64,000 nucleotides of DNA from Cokeromyces recurvatus (taxonomy: Eukaryota; Mucoromycota; Mucoromycetes; Mucorales; Mucoraceae). The stretch is taken from positions 434,001 through 498,000 of the forward strand of contig NW_026251402.1 in NCBI RefSeq assembly GCF_025118155.1. Direction: 5' to 3'. Shown here piece after piece: positions 6,504 through 62,694 of the stretch (position 1 is the stretch's first letter; each line of letters starts with the position of its first letter). The translations under genes were made by a program, and so were the position numbers. A model generated the notes under the pieces. It was given only the letters and a program-made list of their open reading frames with translations, had not been told where the DNA came from and made no database searches.

Positions 6504-7863
6504 ATGGTCCCATCTCAAGAAACCCTCAAGAAGAACTTCATTATCCCCTCTCCTGCTGGTGATGCTGTTGCTCCTACTGGTGCAAACCTTTATGCTCGTT
6601 TTGCTCTTGCCGGTGCTATCTGTTGTGGTATCACTCACGGTGCAATGTAAGTTTTTTTTTTACCATGTAATTATGAATGTATACATGACCTAACCATTTT
6701 AACAAAATAGGGTAAAATAACATAAATGAACATACATACATACATATATATATACATATATACATGTATATAAAGAAAATGATTAATAATTTCATATCAT
6801 AAATAGACTCCTGTTGATGTCGTTAAGACTAGAATTCAATTGTCTCCCGAGATTTACAACAAGGTAATAAAAATAATAATAATGGAGAAGAAAAAAAAAA
6901 TTTTTTTTGTTAACACAACTATTTAAAGGGTATGATTGCTGGTTTCCGTCAAGTCGTTCAAGCTGAAGGTGCTGGTGCCTTGTTGACCGGTTTTGGTCCT
7001 ACCGCTGCTGGTTACTTCTTGCAAGGTGCTTTCAAGTTTGGTGGTTATGAATTCTGGAAAAAGACCTTTATTAATGCTATTGGTGTTGAAAAGGCATCTG
7101 AAAACCGTACTGCCATTTATTTGGGTGCTTCTGCTATTGCTGAATTCTTTGCTGATGTTGCACTCTGTCCATTGGAAGCTACTCGTATTCGTCTTGTCTC
7201 TCAGCCTACCTTTGCTTCTGGTCTTCTTTCTGGTTTCTCCAAGATTATGAAAGAAGAAGGTGTCCTTAAGGGTTTCTATTCTGGTTTCGGTCCTATTTTA
7301 TTCAAACAAGTTCCTTATACCATGGCCAAGTTCGTTGTCTATGAACGTACTACGTAAGTCTTTTTTTTTTTTCTTATATTGAATTATAAACGTACATACT
7401 GATACATTTTTTTTATTTATTAACATAGTGAATTGATTTTGAAATCTTTGGATACTCCTAAGGATCAAATTGCTCCTTCTACTATGACTGTTGTTAATCT
7501 TAGTTCTGGTATTGTTGCTGGTACAGTTGCTGCCATCGTTTCTCAACCTGCTGACACCTTGTTGTCCAAGATTAACAAACAAAAGGGTGCTGCTGGTGAA
7601 TCTCTTACTTCTCGTCTTGTTACTATGGCTGGTCAACTTGGTTTCAAGGGTCTCTTCTTGGGTCTTGGTCCTCGTATTGTTATGGTTGCCACTCTTACTG
7701 CTGGTCAATTGTAAGTATTTTATTAATTAGAAAATAAGGAGGAGAGGGAAGGGAGAGAAGATTGACATGGATTAACGTTTATTTTTTTTTTTTTTATAGC
7801 GCTATTTACGGTGATATTAAGCGTGTTTTGGGAGCTACTGGTGGTGTTGAAATTGCTAAATAA
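6504..7863 (+). CDS. MIR1: Mitochondrial phosphate carrier (Mir1/PiC)
   Basis: Plus-strand gene. The protein contains three mitochondrial-carrier repeats with the signatures [26 protein letters not shown] and [12 protein letters not shown]. It also has [12 protein letters not shown] and [12 protein letters not shown], typical of the phosphate carrier rather than other carriers. Known role: H+/phosphate symport across the inner mitochondrial membrane. Length is about 310 residues, normal for the family. Exons as read: 6504-6646, a single base at 6711, 6807-6863, 6929-7353, 7429-7710, 7800-7863. The first join needs that one extra base: GCAAT + G + ACTCCT gives the conserved AMTPVDVV, whereas direct joining shifts the frame (see findings). 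Codon use is C/T-rich and regular (GGT, GCT, AAG), as in highly expressed genes, unlike its neighbours. Confidence 0.95.
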
Positions 7864-59498: not shown

Positions 59499-62400
59499 AT
59501 GACTTCTAATAATACAATAACAGCAGTCAATGCAACTGTCTTTCAACAAAAACAACCAGAAGAAATCGCAAGACAATACTTAACTGAAGTCCTTGATTTA
59601 AAAGACTTACCAACCGGCACACTGCAAGAAGTATTAAAGGACGGTACTATACTCTGTCGGTATGTATAATACATTAAATCGAACTAATTATTTTCTGTAC
59701 TTACTATTCTTTTTTTTTTATTAGTTTTATACAGCGCTTTGCACCAAATGAATGCATTAATATAAACGAAGGACATAATAAATTTGCCTATGTAAATAAG
59801 CCTTTTTTTTTCTTTCCTTTTAGGATAGAAACTTGATTTATGTAAATTTACTAACCTAATTATTATTATTATTATCAGCAAGATAATATTGGCCAATTTC
59901 TTCGTGTAGCAGAAAATGTATGTTACCATTGCAAATGATACTTAACCTTTTGTTATTAACTAAAAAAAAAAAAAAAAATTGAAAATTAGCTTCATATACC
60001 CCAATCCGATTTATTTCAAACTGTAGACTTATTAGAAGATAAAAGAATGCAAAGTGTTGTATCATGTATTCTTGCAATTAAAAGAATTATGTCCGAAAGA
60101 AAACTCATGCCCTCAAAAAAGATAACAGAGGCACCAGCAACAGGCAAAAGAAGTGGTAATAGTGCTCGTAATTCACTTTTACTTGCATCCACCGCTCTCT
60201 ATCAGAATAGCAAAAACATGAATATCAATATGAATCCAAGTTCATGTATTGGATCCATCAACGATACTGTATATAATAAACTTTATTCTAAAATTTCTTC
60301 AAATTCTACGAAATCATCTGCGAATCAATATTTTCTTAACAACCAACAAAAGAACACCAGTACCTCTTATCTATCTGCTGTAAGTAATAATAACTCAACT
60401 AAAAAGAAAAATAGTATCGATTGGCAAAAGAAATTGAATGGCCATTTAACTGCAACTGACAGAAAGAAGGCAATAGCACCACAAAACACAGCATCAGCAG
60501 CATCAGCAGCAGCAGCATCAGCAGCAGCAACAGCAGCAGTAGGTAACGGGATAGGAGGATACGTAAAATCTCAGGTTCAAATGATAACTACCAATAATAA
60601 TTTAACCATTGCGGAACCCGTAGTCGTTAAAGTCAGAAGGTTCTCTTCCTCTGAGAATAGTGTTAAAAAGGAAGAAGAAAATAGTCAACAATTAGAAACA
60701 AAGAAGCCTGCCACAAAGCTATCACCAGTGACTGTATCGTTGCCTCCTCTACCACCTATACCAAAACCATCTAAATCAACTCCTCTTGTAGCTGCTACAG
60801 AAGTTACAGTCAATGATAGAAAACCAGATACCAACGAAACGAAGTCTACTAAAAATAATAGAGAGACTTATTATACAAATATAGAATCTAGTCGAAAGAC
60901 ATCTTTGAAAAAAATGGGTTCATGTGCTATAACTGTCGAAGGTGATGATGGTATTTCTGCAGTTTATGTAAGTTTTTTTTTCTTCTTCCTTTTCGAGTAT
61001 ATAGTGTGTGTGTGTGTGTTTTGGAGAGGGGAAAAAAAACAAACACGGAAGTATTGATAGATTTATGGTTATATATAATAATAGGCGCTTGGTAAAAGTA
61101 TTGGCAAAGGTCAGTTTGGAGAAGTATTTGGAGGTTTAAATATGGATACTGGGGAGTACGTTGCTATTAAACGCATAAGGAGAAACCAAATGGAATGTGA
61201 TGATATGGTATATATATATATATGCATGATAAATCTTATATATATAACATACATATTTATCTCATTCAAATATACATATAGAATGAAGTAGGCGTACTTA
61301 AGCATTTAAATAGTGAGCACATAGTAAGATATAAGGGATTTTCAAAAGATAAAGAATATTTAAATATCATTTTAGAGTAAGTAATATACATATATAACAG
61401 CTTTGTGTATACACCGTATATCTAATGATTACCTATGTATACAAGATATGTAGAAATGGGTTCACTCCGTAATAATATTAAAGCTTTTGGAAAATTTCCA
61501 GAAAAACTTGCTGCGTCATATACATACAAAATATTATCTGGACTTCATTATCTTCATTCTAAAGATGTGATTCATTGTGATTTAAAAGCAGCCAATATTC
61601 TATTGACAAAGACAGGAGGTTTGAAATTGACTGATTTTGGTGTTTCATTAAGTTTAAAAATGAAAGATGATGAAAATACAGGTGAGCCAGCAGGTACACC
61701 CAATTGGATGGCTCCTGAGGTGATTAAATTTGCAGGTGCCTCTGCAAAGTCTGATATATGGTCTCTAGGTTGTACAGTTGTAGAAATGCTAACAGGGAAA
61801 CCTCCTTATGCAGGCATGCCTTCATTTGCTGCTTTATATAAGATTGTAGAAGACGAAGAACCGCCAATTCCAAAAAATATTAAATTATCAAAGGTATTTT
61901 ACCATTTATCTTGTAAAAATTTGCAAATAATATATAAATTAAACTCTGATCTCTCTCTCTTTCTCTCTTTTAATCCTGTAACATTTATAGGAGGCTACAG
62001 AATTTTTAATGGCTTGTTTTAAAAAGAATCCTGAAGATAGACCATCAGCATATGAGTTAATGAAATCAAAATGGATGGAGTCCTATTTCAAAAGTGATCA
62101 GTCATTATTAGAAGTACCAACAGTAGAATATGTAATAAAAAAGAGCAAAAGTGAAACAAATCTTGAATATTCATCTATGAACTTCAATTCAGAACCTATA
62201 TCTAATAAGGATAGGAATGATTATCTAACTCATAATTTCGTTGATTATCAAACATACCAAGAAGGAGAAAAATGTTCTGGTTGCTCTATTTATATGAAAA
62301 GGCAATGGGTTAAAAGTTGTAAAGGTATACTAAAGATACATCTATATATCTCTATCCAGCTATTATATTAACTTATAATAATATAATAGAATGCCACCTT

Positions 62401-62694
62401 ACATTCCATTCATATTGCATAAACAAGGCGCTACCATGTACTAAAGGTTATCCTATTCCTACCATGGCAATTAAGCCTAACCCTCTTCTTGAAGAAAAAG
62501 TCAGTTCTAATGCAAGATATAAACCATTAGGCCCCATAACAAATATAGTAGGAAAAAATAAGAAATCTTATGTATCCATTATGCAACAGCAACCTAATGG
62601 GCTATATCAACACTTCAAATCTGAAGGCTATTTAAAATCAAAAGGGAACAATAGCAATAGAAGAAACCTTGTAGTATCTTCAATAATGACATAA
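59499..62694 (+). CDS. CH-domain STE-type protein kinase with C-terminal C1-like finger
   Basis: Plus-strand gene of about ten exons, roughly 880 residues. N-terminal calponin-homology domain (about residues 20-130): EIARQYLTEVLDLKDLPTGT, LKDGTILCRFIQRFAPNECI, NKFAYQDNIGQFLRVAENL, LFQTVDLLEDKRMQSVVSCI. A long low-complexity linker follows (Ser/Asn, an Ala-rich run, a proline stretch). The kinase domain has GKSIGKGQFGEVFGGLN, VAIKRIRR, EYLNIILEYVEMGSLRNNIK, VIHCDLKAANILL, LTDFGVSLS, GTPNWMAPEVI and DIWSLGCTVVEML. The kinase most resembles septation-network Cdc7/SepH or plant MAP3K-epsilon. After it come CSGCSIYMKRQWVKSCKEC, then HLTFHSYCINKALPC: a C1-like zinc finger. Catalytic Lys, Asp and DFG are present; HRD is HCD (see findings). 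A role in cytokinesis or actin-linked signalling is inference. Confidence 0.87.

Follow-up and report, generated by a model that had tools for sequence, protein, structure and literature searches.

A probable single-nucleotide exon in the mitochondrial phosphate carrier gene of Cokeromyces recurvatus

How can a reading frame be carried across an intron-like gap if the coding stretches on both sides fit together only when a single base is added? This question is raised by a gene on the plus strand (6504-7863) of a 64,000-nucleotide stretch of Cokeromyces recurvatus DNA, which was analysed as a whole and is called the window hereafter; all coordinates refer to the window unless indicated, and the host genome comprises 28 Mb. 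An earlier note, made from the letters of this DNA, had proposed that a lone G within the gap is an exon of its own.

Gene structure and reading frame

The gene covers 1,360 nt including its introns, which total 388 nt, and the predicted protein matched Pfam Mito_carr (PF00153) in three stretches (E=1e-49). Among the matches listed, the best of those with a name are annotated as mitochondrial phosphate, Cu/Pi or mitochondrial carriers, and the closest protein relative is found in Benjaminiella poitrasii (Mucorales) with 95% identity; solved structures were obtained for distant carriers only (7 distinct sequences). Judged by the Mito_carr repeats and the closest similarity, the predicted product is a mitochondrial phosphate carrier (Mir1/SLC25A3), and the identity assigned in the earlier note is upheld by both Pfam and the named relatives.

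Exon 1 (6504-6646) ends in GGT GCA AT and is followed by intron 1 (6647-6710, 64 nt), which runs from GTAAGT to AAATAG and holds CTAAC at 6690-6694. The putative exon 2 is the single nucleotide G at 6711, the third base of the Met-48 codon, and intron 2 (6712-6806, 95 nt) extends from GTAAAA to AAATAG. Locally, the sequence reads AACAAAATAG up to 6710, G at 6711 and GTAAAATAAC from 6712, and the AAATAG that closes intron 2 at 6806 is followed by ACTCCTGTTGATGTC from 6807. Exon 3 (6807-6863) starts with ACT CCT GTT GAT GTC, and its protein ends in YNK. By translation, exon 4 was placed at 6929-7353, exon 5 at 7429-7710 and exon 6, with the stop codon, at 7800-7863; translation and gene finder together gave intron 3 (6864-6928, 65 nt), intron 4 (7354-7428, 75 nt) and intron 5 (7711-7799, 89 nt). 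Everything that had previously been noted for the bases at 6646, 6647, 6711, 6712, 6806 and 6807 was exact on re-reading. Intron 2 also contains a simple repeat (ATACATACATAC/ATATAT) at 6730-6775, which accounts for the many short matches in a DNA search of the own genome.

With G6711 included, the six exons translate into an intact carrier of 323 amino acids that keeps THGAM-TPVDV; without it, the translation shifts frame and runs into stops, so that exactly one base has to be added across the gap 6647-6806 to hold the frame, just as had been claimed. When donor 6647 and acceptor 6806 were fixed, six candidate exons had an AG before and a GT or GC after them. Two of the six are in frame, and of these only G6711 is free of a stop, making it the single open GT-AG solution in this enumeration. 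The search for a different donor that would keep the frame, which the note had named as a possible refutation, covered single GT-AG or GC-AG introns of at least 31 nt with donors from 6560 to 6699 and acceptors up to 6859. It returned 28 in-frame, open introns, none of which retains THGAM-TPVDV; the nearest alternatives to the 1-nt exon are a GC donor at 6642 (THG-TPVDV) and an intron from 6647 to 6832. The lone G is thus flanked by the AG acceptor of one usable intron and the GT donor of another, it is needed for the frame, and the other canonical solutions lose the protein motif.

Splice signals and chance expectation

A gene finder (Viterbi) was trained without labels in five rounds on 264 kb, namely the window plus 200 kb of another contig, with models of codon usage, donor and acceptor weights and intron lengths. 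It returned 73 genes (65 above the score cut) with 358 introns and, unaided, chose introns 6647-6710 and 6712-6806 with the 1-nt exon between them. The same choice was made after the splice-signal models had been rebuilt minus this gene's five introns, with the codon and length models retained. The gene-finder score was 139.6 with donor 6712 and 121.2 without it, equivalent to a loss of 18 nats.

All four splice sites rank well among the 358 predicted introns: donor 6647 and acceptor 6710 reach the 77th and 67th percentile, and donor 6712 and acceptor 6806 the 82nd and 76th. On the plus strand of the window, 0.6% of 3,035 GT dinucleotides score as high as donor 6712 and 2.3% of 3,360 AG dinucleotides as high as acceptor 6710. 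In 20,000 dinucleotide shuffles of the gap, with its first and last six bases fixed, AGNGT with both introns of at least 45 nt appeared in 2.5% and AGGGT in 0.95%; an AGGGT whose two splice scores were at most 0.5 below the observed values arose in 0.01%. A comparably placed AGGGT was found in none of the 46 predicted introns of 120-260 nt in the genome, and a comparably placed AGNGT in four of them.

With regards to intron length, the predicted median is 74 nt, and 64 and 95 nt are ordinary sizes, as had been noted; a length of 160 nt is uncommon rather than abnormal, with 20 of the 358 introns reaching at least this value, so that it is long, yet not excluded. The branch-like sites fared unequally as well. 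CTAAC, pointed out for intron 1, is over-represented close to the ends of introns (15 of 358, compared to 4.4 expected), whereas TTAAT, pointed out for intron 2, occurs at chance level (69 of 358, compared to 71.4 expected), and the branch site proposed for intron 2 therefore carries no weight.

Among 303 internal exons, the gene finder called three other 1-nt exons, whose removal costs just 0.9 to 2.9 nats each, and all three were rejected as weak or false. The call at window position 61376 is false, as by eye the genomic reading EHIVRYKGFSKDKEYLNIILE runs on as a kinase; it lies in a predicted gene at 59499-62635 on the plus strand, in which a protein-kinase domain was recognised by eye. Since these other calls are weak, a call of the finder by itself is weak too, and the case for G6711 is carried by the 18 nats together with the comparative evidence.

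Two further very short exons appeared in the same output. At approximately 8968 of L032 on the minus strand (C1 approximately 138968), the finder placed a zero-length exon, TAAG-GTAAGA, between introns of 86 and 100 nt. This would be a recursive splice point, and its removal costs 6.0 nats; it may be an artefact, the predicted gene resembling a fusion of neighbours. On the plus strand of L031, a 5-nt exon, CTCCT, was proposed at 1463-1467 between AATAG and GTAAGT, with a cost of 8.8 nats upon removal.

Gene models and transcript-like sequences of relatives

A protein database search scored 8,000 candidates and gave 4,947 relatives, of which the best 120 were aligned; the top 48 rows are mostly named Mucoromycotina. 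Within these best 48 of 4,947 relatives, ten have an indel between residues 39 and 57, a range that surrounds the junction (residue 47.7), and the junction is intact in the remaining 38. Elsewhere after residue 25, with the C-terminal end excluded, only one of the 48 rows is affected (P0046, residues 293-300), and this deletion is also the only indel in the top 48 rows at the other three intron junctions (residues 67.0, 208.7 and 302.7); before residue 25, the N-terminus of these rows varies freely. In rows 49-120, none of the 72 proteins has an indel at the junction, and 47 of them differ in length elsewhere, most often at residues 218 and 266. Querying with just the first 48 residues gave 22 matches and no additional Mucorales protein, and scans of viral and bacterial/archaeal contigs for orthologous DNA found no relative.

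The manner in which the models break agrees with a 1-nt exon. Mucor bainieri P0010 reads GAI-LTDMFNFR-TPVDV, Mycotypha africana P0012 reads GAM-IDELIFLYFHTFNR-TPVDV, and Rhizopus microsporus P0016 and R. azygosporus P0017 read CCETNILFLSR-TPVDV, so that in four of the ten broken models an Arg immediately precedes the Thr (R-TPVDV). Such an Arg would be expected if a predictor retained the last part of intron 1 together with the G (..AGG) as coding sequence before switching to the intron 2 donor. The additional exon that this implies measures 25 nt in P0010 and 43 nt in P0012, both a multiple of three plus one; in P0016, where exon 1 is shortened, it measures 26 nt. Either GAI-IQLSPE or GAI-MQLSPE appears in R. 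arrhizus P0019, R. stolonifer P0025, M. flavus P0033 and R. delemar P0038, which suggests that exon 1 was followed to the same AT and then joined to an AG within the next exon. In Helicostylum pulchrum P0021, CCA is joined straight to TPVDV, consistent with the use of a more upstream donor, and the Apophysomyces model P0048 is broken at the junction and lacks approximately ten residues upstream. Taken from the protein models, which fit, an AG-G-GT arrangement would be present in the DNA of these relatives too.

Other relatives are intact at the junction. P0002, P0003, P0004 (source lgn) and P0006 (source jgi) have the Met codon at the junction, and their contigs measure 1,120, 1,398, 1,053 and 1,063 bases, respectively. 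Beyond the coding sequence, 148, 81 and 91 bases are to spare in P0002, P0004 and P0006, too few for five such introns, and these three are therefore regarded as transcript-like. The contig of P0003 would have room for them, but its unbroken frame of 323 amino acids points to a spliced transcript, since P0122 and P0123 from the same source continue into non-homologous residues, apparently intron. P0003 reads HGAMTPVDV and, outside the junction, shares 299 of 301 residues with the broken Mucor bainieri model; likewise, the intact R. microsporus P0009 and the broken P0016 agree at 302 of 302.

The Umbelopsis-like open frames P0121 (on a 64-kb contig), P0122 and P0123, 90-96% identical to Umbelopsis proteins, cross the junction without an intron, and this read-through indicates that AMT with nothing between is the normal length. 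The best paralogue within the genome (C23:979491-980264, 44%) was considered as well. By eye, its intron lies upstream of PTHSLVTPLD and not at this junction, and it consequently lends no support to the 1-nt exon.

Competing explanations and a possible splicing mechanism

In our view, the 160-nt gap very probably consists of two ordinary short spliceosomal introns around a constitutive 1-nt exon, G6711, which completes the ATG of Met-48. What the earlier note had called a probable single-nucleotide exon thereby receives backing from the only open GT-AG solution and from breaks in the relatives' models that are specific to the junction.

The same mRNA could in principle arise from a single 160-nt intron with one end shifted by a base from the canonical position (GT...TA-G or TA...AG), because the Gs at 6647 and 6806 let such off-by-one readings yield the product of the 1-nt exon. 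We consider this very unlikely, as a non-canonical intron end would be required, the well-scored AG-G-GT would become a coincidence of the kind seen in 0.01% of shuffles, and the Arg-ending stretch before TPVDV in four relatives' models would be left without an account. The loss of a G beside another G is a frequent type of sequencing error, and if a G were missing at TAG-(G)ACT, be it through faulty sequencing or assembly or through a genuine recent deletion, the true gene would have a single ordinary intron. However, independent annotations of at least nine other species break at this very junction and the flanking exons are intact, which makes an error or deletion slightly less probable still.

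Even lower on the scale, at a bare trace of probability, stand the other single introns. Intron 6647-6832 (GAI-IQLSPE) and the GC donor at 6642 (THG-TPVDV) are both in frame and open, and the former type matches the models of R. arrhizus, R. stolonifer, M. flavus and R. delemar. However, acceptor 6832 scores below 99.7% of the predicted acceptors, and its use would delete TPVDVVKTR, which is kept by the transcript-like relatives; the GC donor would cost Ala-Met and ranks lower than any donor among the 358 predicted introns, a result that is partly built into a GT-trained model. Hardly conceivable, to the same degree, is a stwintron or recursive splice point, by which all 160 nt would leave in two steps. 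AG-G-GT does look like a recursive splice point, and stwintrons occur in fungi, yet two nested reactions leave no base, and removal of the whole 160 nt gives a frameshift and stops; here, the frame needs an extra base.

If the single-nucleotide exon is accepted, G6711 would complete GCA AT-G-ACT just upstream of the PxD..K stretch of the phosphate carrier. Inclusion would create the junction GCAATGACTCCT, with GCAATACTCCT expected as the main form if inclusion were not constitutive. The two introns would probably be recognised by intron definition. Acceptor 6710 and donor 6712 lie one base apart and could hardly be occupied at once, and the introns would therefore probably be removed sequentially. 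Once intron 1 is removed, the score of donor 6712 changes from 6.24 to 6.08, and once intron 2 is removed, that of acceptor 6710 changes from 5.69 to 5.18; as both sites still score well once the other intron is gone, either order would be possible. Both the splicing of the Cokeromyces transcript in this manner and the order of removal are inferred. Skipping of the exon (6646 joined to 6807) would cause a frameshift with early stops and hence less carrier; a cellular use of skipping to lower the carrier amount is speculation.

Known single-nucleotide exons and the age of this one

Nuclear single-nucleotide exons are few in the literature examined, and the view of the earlier note that they are known and very rare agrees with the reports on Arabidopsis APC11 (PMC4674806) and on land-plant APC11 and VPS55 (PMC8831610), and with the Fusarium CYP621A exon, described by its authors as the first in a fungal gene (PMC12940212, 2026). 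The closest likeness is to CYP621A: both are nuclear fungal genes with a G within AG-G-GT that repairs the frame in a conserved stretch of the protein, both have faulty public gene models at this place, and relatives without the intron give the normal length (PMC12940212). In the P450 gene of Fusarium (Ascomycota), the G stands second in a Gly codon, whereas it is the third base of Met here; the Fusarium exon is common to orthologues and was proven by RNA reads, whereas the Mucorales exon is predicted from sequence and its sharing is inferred from protein models (PMC12940212).

The plant genes APC11 and VPS55 resemble the present case in having a constitutive or conserved 1-nt exon between spliceosomal introns that was missed by annotation, with intronless relatives (PMC4674806, PMC8831610), whereas in APC11 the exon is an A, the introns are longer (422-nt gap) and cDNA and mutants confirmed it (PMC4674806). 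The placozoan mitochondrial cox1 gene also has a 1-bp exon needed for a conserved residue; it differs by its mitochondrial location and by flanking group I rather than spliceosomal introns (PMC5436844). Fungal stwintrons share two consecutive splicing reactions within one apparent intron, but leave no base, whereas the phosphate carrier gap must keep one. Searches of open-licence literature brought up no report of a single-nucleotide exon in this phosphate carrier gene or in Mucorales. Based on the sequence, the exon is a very probable addition to the known, very small class of nuclear single-nucleotide exons.

The broken models span Mucoraceae (Mucor, Helicostylum), Rhizopodaceae (Rhizopus) and Mycotyphaceae (Mycotypha), with the family of some Rhizopus and Mucor species taken from the genus. 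The exon is thus apparently common to at least three families of Mucorales and, if this holds, would be older than their split; Umbelopsidales seem to have no intron at the junction. A more far-reaching reading, in which the exon was gained after the divergence of Umbelopsidales, is conserved throughout core Mucorales and, since skipping it puts a housekeeping importer out of frame, could turn mitochondrial phosphate uptake on or off through splicing, is unlikely. As to its origin, our guess is that a cryptic AGGGT may have been adopted after the loss of a base at an intron border, as the authors proposed for Fusarium CYP621A (PMC12940212).

A 1-nt exon would explain the altered protein models in the Rhizopus, Mucor, Helicostylum and Mycotypha records. 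If true, single-nucleotide exons would be stable in a conserved gene of core metabolism and would have arisen in different lineages, and the phosphate carrier gene would be a natural test case for the way in which the spliceosome copes with splice sites separated by a single base, an acceptor followed by a donor.
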